From positions 1-20,256 of the IMG/VR virus record IMGVR_UViG_3300043436_000268: 20,256 bases of DNA. The stretch is one strand, 5' to 3'. Of the stretch, positions 3,863 to 20,256 are shown piece by piece (position 1 is the first letter of the stretch; each line of letters opens with the position of its first letter). Source of the DNA: a virus. The notes beneath the pieces were generated by a model. The model did not search any database. It was not told the origin of the DNA and was given only the letters and a program-made list of their open reading frames with translations. Both the position numbers and the translations under genes were made by a program.

Positions 3863-4203
3863 GTCACTTTGCAAAAGTCGTTGACGGTATTGTTGAGCAA
3901 GTGATTGTTGCAGAACAAGAATTTGCAGATACTTTGCCCGGTCAATGGATACAGACTAGCTACAATACCTACGGAAACCAACACTTACTTGGTGGCATTC
4001 CATTAAGAGGTAACTTTGCTGGCATTGGCTACACCTACGATTCTGTAAACGATGTGTTTATTCCTCCAAAACCCTTCCCGTCATGGGTGCTTAATAGCTC
4101 ATATTTGTGGGAAGCCCCCGTTGCTGCACCGCAAGACGGTAAACAATACAGATGGGATGAAGATACAGTTTCTTGGGTAGAATCACTTTTAGTCGAACCT
4201 TAA
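3859..4203 (+). CDS. Conserved phage tail-region protein of unknown function
   Basis: A 114-residue protein starting at GTG 3859. The start overlaps the previous stop (GTGA) and is supported by a strong Shine-Dalgarno sequence, AAGGAGG at 3845-3851, at good spacing. The opening MSHFAKVVDGIVEQVIVAEQ, the middle WIQTSYNT and GNFAGIGYTYD, and the stretch VFIPPKPFPSW match a small protein I recognise from many aquatic tailed phages, including cyanophages, where it sits close to tail fibre genes. Its function is not established to my knowledge. It has no membrane segment or catalytic motif and is rich in aromatic residues, especially Trp and Tyr in the C-terminal third, suggesting a compact structural or accessory domain. 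The gene lies between a fibre-assembly-like gene and small pre-scaffold genes. Confidence 0.8.
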   Translation: MSHFAKVVDGIVEQVIVAEQEFADTLPGQWIQTSYNTYGNQHLLGGIPLRGNFAGIGYTYDSVNDVFIPPKPFPSWVLNSSYLWEAPVAAPQDGKQYRWDEDTVSWVESLLVEP

Positions 4204-4213
4204 AGAGAGCGCA

Positions 4214-4645
4214 ATGGCAGCAGCTTTTCAACTAAATGCGTTTCAACCTAATGCGTTTCAGACGTTAGTCGTTACTGGTGTACTTAACGCTACGGACGAG
4301 AACGACTCTGGAGCGTTTACAGGTACGGTTGGTGGTGTAGTACCTATCGTTGTGATGGATATGCACGATGGTGGGCCAAAGCGCAGAAAGAAAGAAGCTG
4401 ACAAGCAAAAGAAACGCAGAGATGAAGTTATTGCGCTTTTTGAACACATTGTTGAGGGTAAACCATTAGTTGCAGAAGAAATTGCTGCACCATTCATTAA
4501 GCAAGCTACAATAAGCAATCTAAAGTCGATAGATTTTATTAATACCATTGATTTTGATGCGCTCATGGCTGACTTGGTAAGAGTTCAGCAAATTTATGAC
4601 GCATACATTGAAATGGACGATGAGGAGGTTTTAGCTCTGCTATGA
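4214..4645 (+). CDS. Small phage protein with AFQxNAFQ repeats and a basic patch
   Basis: A 143-residue protein with ATG at 4214, preceded by an AAAGAGAG Shine-Dalgarno-like run. I do not recognise a defined family. The N terminus carries a short tandem repeat (AFQLNAFQPNAFQ, residues 4-16), a motif I have seen in other small phage proteins; this is followed by a Gly/Val-rich stretch. Residues about 56-70 are strongly basic (KRRKKEADKQKKRRDE), then a helical, acidic C-terminal half ends in MDDEEVLALL. A basic patch next to acidic helices would suit binding DNA or another virion protein, but this is inference. The stop overlaps the next start (ATGA at 4642), so the two are probably translated together. 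Confidence 0.75.
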   Translation: MAAAFQLNAFQPNAFQTLVVTGVLNATDENDSGAFTGTVGGVVPIVVMDMHDGGPKRRKKEADKQKKRRDEVIALFEHIVEGKPLVAEEIAAPFIKQATISNLKSIDFINTIDFDALMADLVRVQQIYDAYIEMDDEEVLALL

Positions 4646-4968
4646 GAAAGACTTTTGTTTATGTAGATGGCAAGTTGGTCGAAAAGGGTTCAGACGAGCA
4701 TTTGGATAAACTGTATGGCCCGTTCGTGATGCCTGACATTCAACCGTATCAGTCGATGATTGACGGTTCTATGATTACAAGTAGATCAAGACATCGTGAG
4801 CATTTGAATGCACACGGTTGTATTGAGGTTGGTAACGAGAAGATGGAAACAAGGTATGCGCCTATCTCTCAGGACAACCGCAGGGAGGTGTTGCGCCAAC
4901 AGTTAGGCAATATGACACATAAAGAAGCACAACAGATTTTGACGCAATTACGCAGAAAATATACTTGA
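4642..4968 (+). CDS. Conserved small phage protein upstream of scaffold
   Basis: A 108-residue protein whose ATG overlaps the previous stop; GAGGAGG at 4622-4628 lies upstream, though its 13-base spacing is long. The central segment PDIQPYQSMIDGSMITSR, followed by a Ser/Arg/His-rich stretch and CIEVGNE, matches a short conserved phage protein I know from podovirus-type genomes, usually just before the scaffold gene and near the portal gene. The function is unknown to me. The N terminus resembles a beta-hairpin (VYVDGKLVEKG) and the C-terminal 35 residues are probably helical and basic. No zinc-binding cysteine pair is present (a single Cys). The position suggests a role in head assembly, but nothing in the sequence proves this. 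Confidence 0.8.
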   Translation: MRKTFVYVDGKLVEKGSDEHLDKLYGPFVMPDIQPYQSMIDGSMITSRSRHREHLNAHGCIEVGNEKMETRYAPISQDNRREVLRQQLGNMTHKEAQQILTQLRRKYT

Positions 4969-4978
4969 GGGAGTAAGA

Positions 4979-5902
4979 ATGAGCGAAGCTGACAATGCTG
5001 GGCAACCAGACCGCAGAGAGCTACTATCTCAGCAGTTTGACGATGCACAACCACAAATAGACGCTACACCTGCTGTAAGTGTGCAATCAGAACCAGTTCC
5101 AGAACCTGCTGTTTGGGAGCGTCCCCCTGCATCGTGGAAGAAAGATTATCACGAAGTTTGGCAAACCGCAGACCCAAGATTGAAAGAATACGCTTGGCAA
5201 CGTGAAGAAGAAATGAAGAAAGGTGTAGAACCTTTACTTACCAAAGCACAGTTTGCTGACCAAATCCAACAAGCTATTGAACCGTATCAAAACAACATTA
5301 AGTCGCTTGGGATTGAACCAACGCAAGCTATTCAAGCGTTAATGAACGCTGATAATGTCTTGCGTCATGGTTCACCGCAACAGAAAGCGCAGATGTTTGC
5401 TACACTTTCTCAGCAATATGGTGTAAATTTAGGGGAAATCAACAATCTGCAACAACAGCCTGTTGACCCTACCGTGTCAATGCTTCAAAACGAACTTTAT
5501 AATGTTCGCAATGAGGTAATGTCATGGAAACAGCAGCAAGAAGCAGCACAAAACCAAGCTCTTTTGGGCGAAATTAGTGCTTTTTCTGAAAAAGCTGAGT
5601 TTTTTGAAGATGCAAGACCAACAATGATCCAGCTCCTAAATTCGGGAATGGCTCAAAACTTGGACGAAGCGTATAACAAAGCATTACGCCTAGATGAATC
5701 CTTGTCTAGCAAGCTACAGCAAAGCACACAAGCTCAAGCTGAAGCAGCAAAACGAGATTCAGCTAACAAAGCAGCGAAAGCTGCTCGGGCGGCAGCGGTC
5801 AGCGTAAAAAGCTCTACACCCGGAGTGAACACGGCAGCCAAAGCGCAAGACAGACGTTCATTATTAGCCGAAGCATTTGACGGACTAAATGAACGCTTTT
5901 GA
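4979..5902 (+). CDS. Capsid scaffolding protein
   Basis: A 307-residue protein directly upstream of the major capsid gene, the usual place for a scaffold. It is Gln/Ala/Glu-rich and largely helical, with a disordered acidic N terminus, a segment WERPPASWKKDYHEVWQ (about residues 46-62) typical of podovirus scaffolding proteins, long helices with coiled-coil character in the middle, and a basic Ala/Lys-rich C-terminal region (ANKAAKAARAAAVSVK) before the final AFDGLNERF. Basic helical C termini are what scaffolds such as that of P22 use to bind coat protein. No protease motif is visible, so I infer a scaffold without a fused maturation protease. GAGGGAG at 4968-4974 provides a ribosome binding site for the ATG at 4979. 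Confidence 0.88.
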   Translation: MSEADNAGQPDRRELLSQQFDDAQPQIDATPAVSVQSEPVPEPAVWERPPASWKKDYHEVWQTADPRLKEYAWQREEEMKKGVEPLLTKAQFADQIQQAIEPYQNNIKSLGIEPTQAIQALMNADNVLRHGSPQQKAQMFATLSQQYGVNLGEINNLQQQPVDPTVSMLQNELYNVRNEVMSWKQQQEAAQNQALLGEISAFSEKAEFFEDARPTMIQLLNSGMAQNLDEAYNKALRLDESLSSKLQQSTQAQAEAAKRDSANKAAKAARAAAVSVKSSTPGVNTAAKAQDRRSLLAEAFDGLNERF

Positions 5903-6974: not shown

Positions 6975-7427
6975 ATGGCTGGCGGTAGACCGAAGTCTGA
7001 TGAGAAGTTAAGATTTTTAGCAAAAGTAAAAGTTATGGATTCTGGGTGTCACGAATGGCAAGCAGGTTTTAATCGGGGTGGATATGGAAAATTTCAAACC
7101 GAAGGAAAAGCCGCACCAGCCCATCGTGTTGCTTACAGGTTATTTAAGCAGAATCCAGAAAAGCTAAATGTTTTGCATCGTTGCGATAATCGTAAATGCG
7201 TGAATGTCGATCATTTGTTTCTAGGAACATTGAAAGATAACATTGCAGATATGGATGAAAAGCAGCGGCGTGGTACAAAAAGTAAATTAACTTATGCTGA
7301 TGTTGATGTTATTAAAGGTCTTTTAAATGACCGTTATAAACAACAATATATTGCTGAAAAATTTAATATTGACCAAACAACGGTAAGCCGCATTAAACTA
7401 GGCAAAACGTTCCTATTCAAAGATTAA
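6975..7427 (+). CDS. HNH homing-type endonuclease with C-terminal helix-turn-helix
   Basis: This 150-residue protein is a free-standing HNH nuclease of the HNH_3 type, the kind often found as mobile genes in phages. Key residues are C25 and W28 at the start of the fold, GYGKF at 36-40, AHRVAYRLF at 49-57, the metal-binding and catalytic H68-R-C70-D-N72-R-x-C75 with N77 and H80, and LGTLKDN at 83-89. Residues about 105-145 form a likely helix-turn-helix (YIAEKFNIDQTTVSRI), which would guide DNA binding. Basic N terminus GGRPK resembles an AT-hook. The ATG has a strong GGAGG at 6964-6968. The gene separates the capsid gene from the decoration gene, is more AT-rich than its neighbours to the eye, and has its own candidate promoter: signs of an insertion. 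Confidence 0.9.
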   Translation: MAGGRPKSDEKLRFLAKVKVMDSGCHEWQAGFNRGGYGKFQTEGKAAPAHRVAYRLFKQNPEKLNVLHRCDNRKCVNVDHLFLGTLKDNIADMDEKQRRGTKSKLTYADVDVIKGLLNDRYKQQYIAEKFNIDQTTVSRIKLGKTFLFKD

Positions 7428-12575: not shown

Positions 12576-14096
12576 ATGGCACAACCTGCAAACATGATGA
12601 ACCCGATGGCTGCAATGATGGGGCCAGACGTTACTCAACAACAATATCAGATTCAACAAAATCAGCGATACGCAGATATTTTGATGCAGCAAGCGTTAAT
12701 GGATCAACCGCAAGGACAGATGGTTTCTGGTCACTATGTGCCACCTAGTCCTGTGCAGGGTCTAGCGCAATTGCTAAAAGCGTATGTGGGTCGGAGAGCT
12801 TCGGACTTAGTTCCTGAGAAACAAGCAAACTTAGCAGCAGCACAGCAACAACAAATTCAAAATATGTTTGGCATGGGTGGCGGAGTAACGCAACCGCAAG
12901 CAAGAGATATGTCTTTGGCTGGTGGTGCAATGCAAGGCGATGTTGGCCCTACCAACACTAATGCACAGCGTATGCAAGGCGTACAAGCAGGGCAAGCGTC
13001 AGCAATGCCTATTCCTGCGGGAATGGACAGACGTACTGCAATGATGCAGTACATGATTAACCCACAAGCCTATGCAACTGCTCTTGGAACGCACAGCAGC
13101 CCAACAGAGATACAAAAGATTGCTGCTGCGTCTGGGTTTGCACCGGGTACTCCACAATATCAAGCGTTGATGCAAGGCAACTTAGCTAAATCTAATTACA
13201 TTGCACCGACTGTTGTTGGTGAAGGTGGATCACTTGTACCAGCAGGCGCAAACAGACCTACGTTCATTGCTCCAAAAGGTGGAATAAGTATCAACGCACA
13301 AACTGGACAAGCAAATGTGTTGCCCGGATATTTGCAATCAACTGGCGCAATAGCTCAAAACGAATCCTATGCAAAAGGTTTGGGAGGCGCACAAACAACG
13401 CCAGCCACAAGATTTGACGTTGACACAGGCAGAACTGTTGCAACCACACAAGCCGCAAACATGGGCTTGCCGACTCAAGGCATGGGCGGTCAACAAGGTA
13501 GACAACCTGTAGTTACTGCTGAAAACCCCGTTGTTGTTAAAGCGGCTGAACAATTAAACAACCAATGGATTACAGGTCAATTTGAACCTGCTATTGCTGC
13601 TGGTGAAGCTGCAAAAGGTGCAATGGAAAATGTACGCTTATTAAAGAGCATTGACTTGACTACAGGTTTTGGAACGGATGCACAAAAGACTGCTGCAAAC
13701 GTCCTTGCTTCGTTTGGTGTTAAAGACGCAGCTAAGTTTGCTACAAACGCTCAAATATTTGAATCTAAGATTTATGAAGGACTTGTTGATACTCTAGCAA
13801 AGCAGAAAGGCCCACAAACCGACAAGGACTTTGCAAACCTTCAGAAAACATATGCAAGTCTTAAAAATACTCCGCAGGCTAACCAATTCTTGCTTGATGT
13901 TGTTGAAGCAAAAGCTATGCAAGATCAGCGTAAAGCGGGTTATTTTCAGAAAGCAGCGTCCATACCAGAGTTGCGTAGTAACTTGTCTGCAATTACTAAC
14001 GAATGGGGTAAAGTTTCTGGTTCAATGTTTGATTTACCAATCCAAGGTAAAGACGGAAGCACTTACACTCTTGCTCAAAGATACGGAATTAAGTGA
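12576..14096 (+). CDS. Putative internal virion / ejection protein 2
   Basis: A 506-residue protein with a Met/Gln-rich N-terminal third (MNPMAAMMGPD, QQQYQIQQNQRYAD) and an Ala/Gln-rich middle that looks disordered or extended. A helical C-terminal domain from about residue 310 contains AEQLNNQWITGQF, a central segment NVLASFGVKDAAKFA, and KGPQTDKDFANLQKTYASLKN, which is familiar from phage DNA-ejection or internal virion proteins. The protein has no long hydrophobic stretch. AGGAAA before the ATG serves as ribosome binding site. The stop shares bases with the next ATG (TGATG at 14094-14098), so it is coupled to the transglycosylase-carrying ejection protein. The ejection role is inferred from position between similar genes and from the lack of any tape-measure pattern. 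Confidence 0.7.
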   Translation: MAQPANMMNPMAAMMGPDVTQQQYQIQQNQRYADILMQQALMDQPQGQMVSGHYVPPSPVQGLAQLLKAYVGRRASDLVPEKQANLAAAQQQQIQNMFGMGGGVTQPQARDMSLAGGAMQGDVGPTNTNAQRMQGVQAGQASAMPIPAGMDRRTAMMQYMINPQAYATALGTHSSPTEIQKIAAASGFAPGTPQYQALMQGNLAKSNYIAPTVVGEGGSLVPAGANRPTFIAPKGGISINAQTGQANVLPGYLQSTGAIAQNESYAKGLGGAQTTPATRFDVDTGRTVATTQAANMGLPTQGMGGQQGRQPVVTAENPVVVKAAEQLNNQWITGQFEPAIAAGEAAKGAMENVRLLKSIDLTTGFGTDAQKTAANVLASFGVKDAAKFATNAQIFESKIYEGLVDTLAKQKGPQTDKDFANLQKTYASLKNTPQANQFLLDVVEAKAMQDQRKAGYFQKAASIPELRSNLSAITNEWGKVSGSMFDLPIQGKDGSTYTLAQRYGIK

Positions 14097-16903
14097 TGGA
14101 AAACCCAATTATTGCTGAGTTGTTGCCAAAGCTAAATGAACCGAATGTCCGAAGTTTTTTGGACATGATTGCGGCTGCTGAAGGCACTACAAAGCATGGG
14201 TACAACACACTTTTTGGCGGTGGTAAGTTTGATAATTTGCAAGACCACCCAAGACAATTGTTTGATTTTACGGAAACAACGGGCAGAAAGAACAAAACTT
14301 CTGCTGCTGGACGTTATCAATTCTTGTCAAATACTTGGGATGAGCAAGCAAAGAAGCTAGGATTACCTGACTTTGGCGAACAAAGTCAAGACTTAGCAGC
14401 GGTCAATCTATTGCGTGAACGTGGGATTCTTCCTGACGTTTTGCAAGGCAATTGGGAAGCTGCTGTAAAAAAGTCTGGCCCTATTTGGGCAAGTCTACCC
14501 TCTAGTCCGTATCCGCAACCAAGACAGTCTGAAGCGTTTGTAATGGGTCAGTTAAACAACCCAAGAAATCGTGTAGCTAGTGGGCCTGTAACCTCTGATG
14601 TGAATCCTATCACTATGCCTAATCAACGAGCAAATCCATTTTCTGCGTTGAATGAAGAATTTAGAATTGGTGCGCCAGTTCAACAACAGCAGCAGACAAG
14701 AAATCCTTTTGAGGAATTAAACGCAGAGTTTGCATTAAGACCTGTGGAAAGTACGGTTGCACCCGTAACTGCTGCACCACAGCAAAATCAACCTTTTGAC
14801 ATTAATCAACTGTTGCGTCCTGTAGGACTAACAGCAAGGGCTGGAATTGAAGGTTTGGGTTCGTTGGTTGGGATGCCTTTAGAACCATCAAGAATGGCAT
14901 TGGAATCTTTGTCAACATCGTTGGGTGGCCCTAAAGTCGCATCAGCAGAACAATTATCTTCAAAACTTGCAAATCTACTGCGTTTGCCAAAACCTGCTGA
15001 ACGGTCAATAATGGATCAAGGTGTAAACCTAGAACGTGTAGGTTTTGACGTAGCTAAAACAATGGCAGGCGCAGCTGGCGGCGCAGGACTTGCGGGTAGA
15101 TTAGCCCCTCTTGCAACAAACGCAACAAGCGCAAACGTGCTAAATCAACTATCTGCAAACCCTGTTTTGCAAACACTTTCTGGCGCAGGCGCAGGCGCAG
15201 GCGGAAGTATTGCAAGAGAGTACAACGCAGGGCCGGGCTTTGAACTTGGTGCAAGCATCTTGGGTGGCATTGCTGCACCTATTGCTGGCGCAGGTGCAAA
15301 GTCAGCTACTACTGCTGCGGTGCAAAAGCTAACCCCTGCTGCTAGTCCAGCGCAAGTCGATCAAATGATTACTTTGACACTTGGCAAATCGGGAATTGAC
15401 TTTAAATCCCTTGATGACCAAATTCAAAGAACATTAAGAAATGACGTTGCAAGCGCATTGCAAACAGGCGGTGAACTAAGCGGCGATACCTTGCGTAGAT
15501 TGCTTGATTTCAGAATGGTTCAAGGTGCTACGCCCACTAAAGGCATGATTACCCAAGACCCAAGACAAATCACGCAAGAAATGAATTTAGCCAAAACAGG
15601 CATAAATTCTACAAACCCTGATTTGCAAACATTGGGTAATGTTCAGAATGCAAACAATCAAGCCTTGATACAAGCTCTAAACAGAGCAGGCGCAGGCAAA
15701 GTTGGCACTTTTGAAGCGGGTGAAGCTAACATTTCAAGCATTGCAGCTAAAGACTTAGCTAGACAAGCAGAAACATCAGCGTTGTACAAACAAGCGCAAG
15801 GTATGCCCGGTGGGGATGTGCCGTTGAATCGTGCTGATTTAATGCAAAATATTGATACGCTTTTGGCTAAAAACAATAAAGCAGCGTTTTTGCCGGAAGA
15901 AATAAGAACAATGCTAAACACGATTAGCAAAGGCGAAACCACTATTAACGGTCAAGTTTATCCTGTGCCATTTGATACGATGGCTATAGATAACTTGATG
16001 ACCACAATTGCAAAAGCGCAGCGTGGGACATCAGATGGAAACGTCAAGCAAGCGTTGAGCTTAGTTAGACAAGCTATTGATGAAACCGACATTAAACCGA
16101 TTAAGACGCAATTTGGCGGCAATCAGCTAGTTACTGAATCTGGCGCAAAATACTTGCAAAGCAAAGACGCTGAATCACAACAGTTACTTGATGCGCTTAA
16201 CCAAGCAAGAGCATCACACAAAGCTCGCATGGATTGGCAGCAATCCTCAAACCCCGTTGAAGCAACAATTAACGGTATGCAGCCTGACAACTTTGTTAAG
16301 AAGTTTGTACTTGGCGGTACGGTTGCGGATGCTGCTGCGGTAGCAACTGCGGGTAATCCTGCGGCAACCAAAAACGCTATTTTGTCCCATTTGAAAGAAA
16401 AAGCTATCGGCGTGGGTCAAACTGACGAAACTGGCAAATTTGGTGCTAGATCATTTAACAAAGCGTTAACCGATATTGGTGATAAGAAGCTAGAATTGTT
16501 TTTTAATAAACAAGAAATAGAAGAATTAAAACGAATTGGTCGAGTAGGTACTTACATGACCAACCAACCAATTGGAACGGCTGTAAACAACAGCAACTCT
16601 GGTGCTTTAGTTATTGGTTCTATGATAGATGGGATTGCTACTTTAGCTGGCATCTCCCCAATGGGTGTTGGTGCTAGTTTAGCTGTGCCTGTGGCAAAAT
16701 CGGTAGGCAGCAAAGCATTGCGTAATGTCACAAGCGCATCTGCACAAAAAGACGCTTTAAAGATAGCGGAAGCATTACAGAATAGAGTGCCGGGCATAGC
16801 TTTAGGCGATACGGTAAGCCCCGCAGTTCTTTACGGTAGTTTGTTGCAAAACCCACAATTGATGCAGCAACTTGGTCAAAGATTAACTGAAGAACAGAGG
16901 TAA
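14096..16903 (+). CDS. Ejection protein with N-terminal lambda R-like transglycosylase
   Basis: A 935-residue protein from ATG 14096; GTG 14093 is an alternative adding one residue. Residues about 5-148 match the lambda R endolysin (GH104 lytic transglycosylase): FLDMIAAAEGT with the probable catalytic E29, HGYN, DHPRQL, AAGRYQFLSNTWDEQAKKLGL (in two blocks), SQDLAAVNLLRERGILP and IWASLPSSPYPQ. The remaining 780 residues are unlike any endolysin: a doublet NPFSALNEEF / NPFEELNAEF at 180-212, Gly/Ala-rich hydrophobic stretches at about 320-372 and 384-405, a long helical region, and a hydrophobic segment near 835-872. This layout, peptidoglycan hydrolase plus membrane-active regions, is that of T7 gp16-type ejection proteins that open the cell wall during entry. 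It is the last of the three ejection genes. It could also contribute to lysis. Confidence 0.82.
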   Translation: MENPIIAELLPKLNEPNVRSFLDMIAAAEGTTKHGYNTLFGGGKFDNLQDHPRQLFDFTETTGRKNKTSAAGRYQFLSNTWDEQAKKLGLPDFGEQSQDLAAVNLLRERGILPDVLQGNWEAAVKKSGPIWASLPSSPYPQPRQSEAFVMGQLNNPRNRVASGPVTSDVNPITMPNQRANPFSALNEEFRIGAPVQQQQQTRNPFEELNAEFALRPVESTVAPVTAAPQQNQPFDINQLLRPVGLTARAGIEGLGSLVGMPLEPSRMALESLSTSLGGPKVASAEQLSSKLANLLRLPKPAERSIMDQGVNLERVGFDVAKTMAGAAGGAGLAGRLAPLATNATSANVLNQLSANPVLQTLSGAGAGAGGSIAREYNAGPGFELGASILGGIAAPIAGAGAKSATTAAVQKLTPAASPAQVDQMITLTLGKSGIDFKSLDDQIQRTLRNDVASALQTGGELSGDTLRRLLDFRMVQGATPTKGMITQDPRQITQEMNLAKTGINSTNPDLQTLGNVQNANNQALIQALNRAGAGKVGTFEAGEANISSIAAKDLARQAETSALYKQAQGMPGGDVPLNRADLMQNIDTLLAKNNKAAFLPEEIRTMLNTISKGETTINGQVYPVPFDTMAIDNLMTTIAKAQRGTSDGNVKQALSLVRQAIDETDIKPIKTQFGGNQLVTESGAKYLQSKDAESQQLLDALNQARASHKARMDWQQSSNPVEATINGMQPDNFVKKFVLGGTVADAAAVATAGNPAATKNAILSHLKEKAIGVGQTDETGKFGARSFNKALTDIGDKKLELFFNKQEIEELKRIGRVGTYMTNQPIGTAVNNSNSGALVIGSMIDGIATLAGISPMGVGASLAVPVAKSVGSKALRNVTSASAQKDALKIAEALQNRVPGIALGDTVSPAVLYGSLLQNPQLMQQLGQRLTEEQR

Positions 16904-18590: not shown

Positions 18591-18845
18591 ATGGATTGGC
18601 AAATCATCATTAACATTGGTGCAGCAGGACTGTTGACAATCGGCGGATGGTTTGCCCGTCAGCTATGGGATTCCGTCAAAGAGCTACGCAAAGAAATGTC
18701 CGATATGCGTTTACACGTTTCTGACGTTTATGTAAAAAAAAGCGAAATTGAGGGATTTCGTGCTGACATGGACAAGAGGTTTGACCGTATTGAAATGTTG
18801 CTAGATAAACTCTATGGAAAGCTAGACCAAAAGGTCGATAAGTGA
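18591..18845 (+). CDS. Small membrane protein with coiled coil, lysis candidate
   Basis: An 84-residue protein: MDWQ, one membrane segment at about residues 5-22 (IIINIGAAGLLTIGGWF), then Arg/Lys-rich helix and a coiled coil with DMDKRFDRIEMLLDKLYGKL near the end. The charge pattern (acidic N terminus, basic flank after the membrane segment) suggests the coiled coil faces the cytoplasm, which argues against an Rz-type i-spanin. Similar small proteins next to phage lysis genes are often annotated as holin-like or hypothetical. It is followed by a GTGA overlap with the next gene. Role in lysis is inferred from position only. The ATG lacks a clear Shine-Dalgarno sequence. Confidence 0.65.
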   Translation: MDWQIIINIGAAGLLTIGGWFARQLWDSVKELRKEMSDMRLHVSDVYVKKSEIEGFRADMDKRFDRIEMLLDKLYGKLDQKVDK

Positions 18846-19450
18846 CAGAGGATAAAGCTAAAGATACGCTAATGGGCGTACTCAGCTATATAAACTCCCC
18901 GTTTAAGCTGTTTGTCGTTGTCCTACTAGGTATTCTTGGATTTATAGGCTATTTCGTGTACACCCATCAAGGAGTAATGGTTGGTGCGTACCTCAAAAGC
19001 AAAGAATTACCCAAGCTAGATGAAAGCAGATTTGATCTTGCTGCTTCTATGCTGTTTAGAGAAACAAAAGCAGAAACCGTAGCTATCTTTGCTGTAGACC
19101 CAATATTGAACAAGCGTGTACTTGTAAGAGCGTACGCTAAAGACGGTATTAGACACAAGATACTAGAGGGTGCAAACGTAGGCTTGTTCTCAGGAAGCCA
19201 AGCTAATAACGCTGATGTCGTTAAGTTAATGGCTGGTGAAATACCTTGTGGTCAATACTTGCGTCCACAGAGTGAAGCAGGACTTTGGTACATCCACCAA
19301 GGTGTTCGCTTTACTTGCAGGGTGTCTATCCCCCCTGATATTAGTCAATTTATTGGTCAAATTACCGTAGGTTGGGCTGGTGAACCAGACCTAGATTATT
19401 CACGTTCAATTATGGAAGTTGTAGCCCGTGGTCTTATATTGCAAAAATAG
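18842..19450 (+). CDS. Membrane-anchored protein of unknown function with GAF-like domain
   Basis: A 202-residue protein starting at GTG 18842, which overlaps the previous stop; AAAAGG upstream is a plausible ribosome binding site. One membrane segment lies at about residues 22-40 (KLFVVVLLGILGFIGYFVY). The soluble part, residues about 60-202, has the strand/helix order of a GAF-like fold: helix LAASMLFRET, strands VAIFAVDP and RVLVRAYAKDG, a helix VVKLMAGEIPC, then strands VRFTCRVSIPP and QITVGWAGEPD and a terminal helix. Cysteines C136 and C159 could pair. I do not recognise a named family and the GAF resemblance is by eye. It sits between two other membrane proteins in a lysis-like cluster, so it may regulate or inhibit lysis, or act in superinfection exclusion; no function is shown. 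Confidence 0.75.
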   Translation: MTEDKAKDTLMGVLSYINSPFKLFVVVLLGILGFIGYFVYTHQGVMVGAYLKSKELPKLDESRFDLAASMLFRETKAETVAIFAVDPILNKRVLVRAYAKDGIRHKILEGANVGLFSGSQANNADVVKLMAGEIPCGQYLRPQSEAGLWYIHQGVRFTCRVSIPPDISQFIGQITVGWAGEPDLDYSRSIMEVVARGLILQK

Positions 19451-19458: not shown

Positions 19459-19866
19459 ATGATTCTCGACATACTTAATATTGGTGGAAAGCTGATTGAT
19501 AAGCTCTTTCCTGACGCTAATGCCGCAGAAGCTGCAAAACTTAAATTATTAGAGCTACAGCAAAGCGGTGAACTTGCAAGAATGCAAGCTGATATACAAG
19601 AGCAGCAAGAGGTCACCAAGCGGTGGACTGCTGATATGACATCAGACTCTTGGTTGTCTAAAAATATTCGCCCTATGACGCTTTTAATCATTCTAGGAGG
19701 GTATTTTACTTTTGCTTTGATGTCTGCTTTTGATTTTGACACTCATAAGCAATATGTAGAATTGCTTGGAAACTGGGGAATCATTGTGATGACCGCCTAT
19801 TTCGGAGGTCGTACGGTAGAAAAAGTTATGGACATGAAAGCCAAAAATTCAGAGAAAGAAAAGTGA
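19459..19866 (+). CDS. Holin of the 3TM family
   Basis: A 135-residue protein. After an amphipathic N-terminal helix (LDILNIGGKLIDKLFP) and a Gln/Glu-rich helix there is WLSKNIRPMTLLIILGGYF (about 65-83), a second hydrophobic segment around 102-117 (LLGNWGIIVMTAYFGG), and a charged tail. The RPMTLL and YFGGRTVEK motifs match the 3TM holin family (Pfam PF11351, described from gene transfer agents). Holins of this kind form lesions in the inner membrane at the end of infection. Only two strong membrane segments are visible plus the amphipathic N-terminal helix. It lies downstream of two other membrane proteins. No stand-alone endolysin is in the window, so the partner enzyme is either beyond the right edge or the domain fused to the ejection protein. 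Confidence 0.82.
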   Translation: MILDILNIGGKLIDKLFPDANAAEAAKLKLLELQQSGELARMQADIQEQQEVTKRWTADMTSDSWLSKNIRPMTLLIILGGYFTFALMSAFDFDTHKQYVELLGNWGIIVMTAYFGGRTVEKVMDMKAKNSEKEK

Positions 19867-20256
19867 TTTACAAAGATAGGCAATGCAAAGTTTGTTCTTC
19901 ATTTTTTTCACCAAAATCTTCTATGGAGAAATGGTGTTCAAATAATTGTCGTTTTAAAAGTCACATTAAGCAAAATTGGACATTTGATAACTGCTGGAAT
20001 TGGGACGGAGCAATTTTTAAACAAACCGGATACGGTCAATTTGGCTCTGTTAAATCTGGTGTACATACAGCCCATAAATATTCGTATCAATTGTTTAATG
20101 GACAAGTGCCAGAAGGGTTGTTTGTTTGTCATACTTGCGATAACAGACTGTGCTTTAACCCCAAACATTTGTGGCTTGGAACGGCAAAACAAAACTCAGA
20201 AGATATGGTTAAAAAAGGTCGTTATAACCATGAAAGAAACCGCCCCAAAGGGGTAG
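19863..20256 (+). CDS. Second HNH endonuclease, 3' end cut by window
   Basis: The frame is open from GTG 19863 to the window edge (131 codons, no stop). The start overlaps the holin stop (GTGA), as at 3859 and 18842. The product opens with a probable zinc knuckle, C8-x2-C11 and C25-x3-C29, then the same fold as the first HNH gene: C44-W-N-W, GYGQF (56-60), AHKYSYQLF (70-78), H90-T-C92-D-N94-R-x-C97, N99, H102, LGTAKQN (105-111) and DMVKKGR. It is an HNH_3-type nuclease. A 90-residue reading frame at 19984-20256 in another frame has no such features and is a shadow. No clear Shine-Dalgarno sequence precedes the GTG, so expression may depend on translational coupling to the holin. Confidence 0.87.
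   Translation, partial: MIYKDRQCKVCSSFFSPKSSMEKWCSNNCRFKSHIKQNWTFDNCWNWDGAIFKQTGYGQFGSVKSGVHTAHKYSYQLFNGQVPEGLFVCHTCDNRLCFNPKHLWLGTAKQNSEDMVKKGRYNHERNRPKGV

Follow-up and report, generated by a model that had tools for sequence, protein, structure and literature searches.

A putative divergent class III holin related to T4 holin T in an environmental phage lysis cassette

The 202-amino-acid protein described here, which we call the T-like protein, is most likely a distant and hitherto unannotated relative of the T4 holin, which opens the host membrane and thereby allows the phage to burst out. It is encoded near the end of the window, the whole 20,256-nucleotide stretch (positions 1 to 20,256) of the IMG/VR virus record IMGVR_UViG_3300043436_000268. 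At a probability of roughly 70%, we read it as a divergent member of the class III holins, homologous to holin T of T4 and T5, with holin activity as its putative function. Computational comparison establishes homology and a common fold with T, a class III topology by prediction, and linkage to lysis genes.

The ORF opens with a GTG codon that overlaps the stop codon of an upstream 84-aa ORF by four nucleotides (GTGA), which bears out the translational coupling to a small membrane and coiled-coil protein proposed in the first-pass annotation. Eight nucleotides after its end begins the ORF of a GTA_holin_3TM-family protein with an AGGAGGT Shine-Dalgarno sequence (Table 1). The dN/dS values are 0.04–0.09 against four relatives that are 85–91% identical, and the 202-aa ORF is real and under purifying selection. 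Its product matches PHROG_31287 (E 5e-22), a family annotated as "unknown function". Relatives are encoded on at least 557 IMG/VR contigs, and the contigs that carry family members include some over 250 kb. No relatives turned up in two scans of GTDB genome contigs, which therefore pointed to no bacterial host. Searches with the single sequence gave no Pfam match and nothing useful in the PDB, a profile search of PDB sequences with the family returned a chance match only, and a search of the literature for the family by name found nothing. No separate endolysin gene lies beside the T-like ORF in the window. An HNH endonuclease ORF, open at the window end, occupies the slot that holds a GH108 endolysin in the 99%-identical relative L002; a second HNH ORF is located at 6975-7427, after the major capsid gene.

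Table 1 Coordinates of the T-like gene, its neighbours and its predicted elements, with examples of the secreted neighbour c5 in relatives
Feature	Position	Strand	Basis
T-like (class III) holin candidate, 202 aa, PHROG_31287	18842..19450	+	T profile homology with decoys; Foldseek 6PSK
84-aa protein, N-terminal hydrophobic helix, C-terminal coiled coil	18591..18845	+	ORF; related to PHROG_7885, PHROG_462
GTA_holin_3TM-family protein, 135 aa	19459..19866	+	PF11351 E 5.9e-11; PHROG_3427 holin E 6e-29
HNH endonuclease ORF, open at window end	19863..20255	+	PF13392 E 5.6e-11; PHROG_1872
N-terminal helix, residues 3-16, predicted cytoplasmic	18848..18889	+	AlphaFold2; amphipathic in most family members
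Single membrane helix, residues 20-41, after conserved SPFKL	18899..18964	+	AlphaFold2; conserved P20 F21 K22 L23
Bridge helix, residues 43-55	18968..19006	+	AlphaFold2; place of the essential bridge helix of T4 T (PMC12162936)
GAF-fold domain, residues 61-197, mixed alpha/beta, predicted periplasmic	19022..19432	+	AlphaFold2; Foldseek
Invariant Cys136	19247..19249	+	55 sequences
Invariant Cys159	19316..19318	+	55 sequences
c5 examples (outside the window)	L175:5591-5869; L179:2874-3167; L184:5591-5935		

Class III holins are defined by one transmembrane helix, an N-in orientation and a large periplasmic C-terminal domain (PMC9636201). An AlphaFold2 model of the window protein, built on 55 aligned homologues, reached a mean pLDDT of 88.6 and agrees with the initial description, in which a GAF-like soluble domain comes after a single membrane helix; the GAF matches found by Foldseek agree as well. 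The class III layout is reproduced by prediction: the model has one membrane helix, and across the family the N-terminal side is basic, with a median net charge of +6 that accords with an N-in orientation. Many members carry a long Lys-rich N-terminal tail. The N-terminal helix is significantly amphipathic by its hydrophobic moment in 72% of 173 family members; for the window protein alone the amphipathicity is not significant (p 0.09-0.13), and T4 T behaves likewise by the same test. Residues P20, F21, K22 and L23 are conserved in the 55-sequence alignment, where the SPFKL motif precedes the membrane helix, and six columns are invariant across these diverse sequences: P20, L23, C136, C159, P164 and G172.

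The top PDB match of the model by Foldseek is the periplasmic domain of T4 holin T (6PSK, E 7.1e-6, TM 0.69 by target), and 6PX4 and 6PXE are also near the top. GAF domains are numerous among the top matches and close behind (2e-5 versus 7e-6 for 6PSK); with so narrow a lead over plain GAF domains, the fold alone would not decide. In BFVD the family's own members rank first; below them come uncharacterised phage proteins, phage proteins labelled "GAF domain-containing", and proteins named as T or class III holins. As modelled, the soluble domain is GAF-like by fold, with the periplasmic domain of holin T as the closest solved example. Its overall fold is like that of the GAF domains of phytochromes and sensor kinases, but the window protein differs from these in its membrane anchor, in its lysis context and in leaving the GAF profile in Pfam unmatched at E values up to 1.

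An alignment of ten T4/T5-type T holins served as the reference for profile-profile comparison by hhalign. The T-like family aligned with it colinearly over 190-193 columns (E 1.5e-4 to 4.8e-5, hhalign probability 52-68%), and the alignment with an E value of 4.8e-5 scored 39.1 over 193 columns. The decoys were 73 other clusters of proteins encoded in the same loci; the best of them scored 25.2 over 50 columns against T, and the T-like family scored at most 21.7 against the 73. The alignment to T takes in the pore-forming N-terminal and membrane part and not the soluble domain alone. T has an amphipathic N-terminal helix, without which the pore does not open, then one membrane helix, a bridge helix and a globular domain; in T4 the bridge helix is essential, while the globular domain is dispensable for lysis and serves regulation (PMC12162936). 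As late as 2025, T4 holin T was described as unique among holins in its domain structure (PMC12162936).

The T-like family resembles T4/T5 holin T (class III; PF11031 Phage_holin_T, PHROG_860) in length, order of elements, fold of the periplasmic domain and full-length profile similarity and, in GF-2-type phages, in its position in the lysis cassette. It differs in its other usual partners, in the Lys-rich tail of many members, in the placement of Cys136 and Cys159 and in the silence of PF11031, which matched neither the window protein nor four diverse members at E values up to 1 and 10. In the profile alignment, Cys159 is offset by two columns from T4 Cys175, the C-terminal helix of the T-like protein contains no Cys, and the invariant pair does not match the T4 disulfide positions (Cys 175 and 207). 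Since the Cys pair is off the T4 positions and PF11031 is unmatched, we regard the T-like proteins as a sister family and not as PF11031 members. The first-pass annotation had considered such a protein not usual in holin/endolysin/spanin cassettes, a view that is wrong, as the design is that of the class III holins (T of T4 and T5), the best structural and profile match. It had also held that a match to a known spanin, endolysin or structural family would speak against an undescribed component; a known family is indeed matched, but it is that of the T holins, which was absent from the list.

By analogy with T, the T-like protein would accumulate in the inner membrane in the predicted topology, with the N terminus inside, one membrane helix and the GAF-fold domain in the periplasm. 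The N-terminal, membrane and bridge helices would make the hole through which soluble endolysin exits. The periplasmic domain might act as a handle for regulation, stabilising oligomers and offering an inhibitor a place to bind. The small coiled-coil membrane protein, the T-like protein and the 3TM protein would be translated together in this phage, and the nearest relative has an endolysin gene directly downstream.

Placement inside a lysis cluster, also claimed initially, holds across the family: an endolysin gene lies within 4 kb of the T-like gene in 88 of the 105 distinct loci with flanks, though the window itself has no adjacent endolysin gene. It is downstream on the same strand within 1.5 kb in 124 of the 148 loci that have 1.5 kb of downstream sequence. 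The linked endolysins belong to four families, GH108, M15 peptidase, GH24 and GH19. This linkage in otherwise differing cassettes, together with the homology to holin T, makes it highly improbable that the T-like protein is a superinfection-exclusion or host-takeover membrane protein merely near lysis genes, even if one membrane helix with a periplasmic domain would suit such a protein and the gene of phages S13 and Ci1 is away from known lysis genes.

A 3TM-type protein is encoded nearby in 72/105 distinct loci and coiled-coil small-protein clusters in 52/105. Like the T-like protein, the GTA_holin_3TM protein (PF11351) of the adjacent ORF is a membrane protein of the lysis cassette, but it is unrelated in sequence and topology and does not always accompany the T-like gene. 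The order is T-like, 3TM, endolysin in the close relatives L002, L006 and L012, and T-like, Rz-like, endolysin in the close relatives L003, L014 and L024; both types often carry the 84-aa protein upstream. The Rz-like cluster was named by architecture and position and has no Pfam spanin match. Rz-like and 3TM-type proteins share one slot after the T-like gene, and the endolysin-bearing loci comprise 79 with the 3TM type only, 11 with the Rz-like protein only, 8 with neither and none with both. From this mutual exclusivity in the same slot, the holin of T-like cassettes may not come from the 3TM family, although the exclusion comes from loci related to each other and is suggestive only. The 3TM gene announced downstream by the first-pass annotation is present, but its holin label is open to question in these cassettes. 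The expected conservation next to holins was found in the sense that the T-like gene is conserved in lysis cassettes; the endolysin is a more constant neighbour than the 3TM holin.

The tight operon with the 3TM gene in the window and in L002, and the frequency of this neighbour, would also be compatible with a two-part holin, in which the T-like protein opens the membrane jointly with the 3TM protein or with some other small membrane protein. We consider this quite improbable, as in close relatives an Rz-like protein takes the slot of the 3TM-type protein, and L019 and Edwardsiella phage GF-2 encode the T-like protein, an Rz-like protein and an endolysin, and no further membrane protein was recognised in their cassettes. 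In some relatives the T-like protein is the sole holin candidate found. A small two-TM ORF is present upstream in some Rz-type cassettes (L003, L014 and L110) and absent in L019.

Cultured phages carry the T-like gene as well. In Edwardsiella phages GF-2 and Edno5 it occupies exactly the slot of a holin gene, between a Q antiterminator gene and a lysozyme gene whose product has no membrane signal; in GF-2 a DUF2514 protein with a weak Rz match follows the lysozyme. The complete genomes of GF-2 and Edno5 gave no match to PF11031 or PF11351. Two T4-like Straboviridae, Cronobacter phage S13 and Citrobacter phage Ci1, also have the T-like gene, in their case not beside an endolysin gene. No PF11031 T was found in the whole genomes of S13 and Ci1, a pattern that fits the replacement of T by the T-like gene. 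These four phages are the strongest argument for a holin over a regulator of another holin.

Such a regulator is the main rival to our reading: the protein would be an antiholin or lysis-timing sensor with a T fold, and the adjacent 3TM protein would be the true holin that it restrains or times. The nearness of the 3TM type in so many loci and the holin label of PF11351 are in its favour. GAF folds are often sensory. The globular domain of T4 T is regulatory as well (PMC12162936). We nevertheless consider a regulator unlikely, as the 3TM type is absent in many relatives, including the close L003, L014 and L024 and the complete GF-2 and Edno5, and the T alignment spans the pore-forming N-terminal and membrane part too. 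An antiholin or exclusion role, both suggested initially, ranks below a holin because the design and the best matches are those of holin T. What counts against the holin reading is the silence of PF11031, the small Foldseek lead over GAF domains, a 3TM "holin" in the same cassette, the two-TM ORF of some relatives, the separation from the endolysin in S13 and Ci1, and the N-terminal helix of the window protein, which is not significantly amphipathic.

The T4 antiholin RI is small and secreted, and its signal peptide is cleavable (PMC8385771). The window protein shares with RI a periplasmic domain, here a predicted one, and a putative place in T-type lysis control, but differs from it in its length of 202 aa, in keeping an internal membrane helix and in an alpha/beta domain that matches T and not RI. 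In 63 loci of relatives, the end of the T-like gene is overlapped or abutted by a gene for c5, a protein of about 90 aa that has two invariant Cys residues and is predicted to carry a signal peptide; the window phage has no c5 gene. c5 is predicted to be all-helical (pLDDT 89.7). No relatives were found in Pfam or the PDB, with no PDB sequence match below E 0.6. Identity with RI by homology was rejected, as the profile score of 11.6 was below the decoys and no fold match was below E 2.8. It is possible that c5 is a periplasmic antiholin, a functional analogue of RI. Tentatively, and with considerable doubt, uncultured and very large phages might harbour a second, widespread lineage of T-type holins to which the T-like proteins belong, with c5 serving many of them as a small secreted antiholin; if so, T4-style lysis inhibition would be far commoner than known and would work through an unrelated inhibitor.

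With a holin function, PHROG_31287 would gain a function, and T would gain a comparative family in hundreds of environmental phages. The family occurs in T4-like phages without T and on contigs over 250 kb, and many environmental lysis cassettes would become readable. The "holin" label of the neighbouring 3TM family would be called into question in T-like cassettes.

Two loci encode two T-like paralogues each (L180:3493-4098 and 4842-5594; L182:2757-3362 and 4100-4852), the first paralogue being flanked by sodium/dicarboxylate symporter-like and aspartate/glutamate racemase-like ORFs, identified by eye from the sequence. Elsewhere in the window, 9246-10790 matches PHROG_5107, labelled "lysis: amidase"; it lies among virion genes and probably encodes a structural protein, so that the PHROG label looks doubtful. 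The 936-aa protein encoded at 14093-16903 has a lysozyme-like N-terminal region (PHROG_17230, PHROG_90) and is probably a virion-associated peptidoglycan hydrolase rather than the endolysin.
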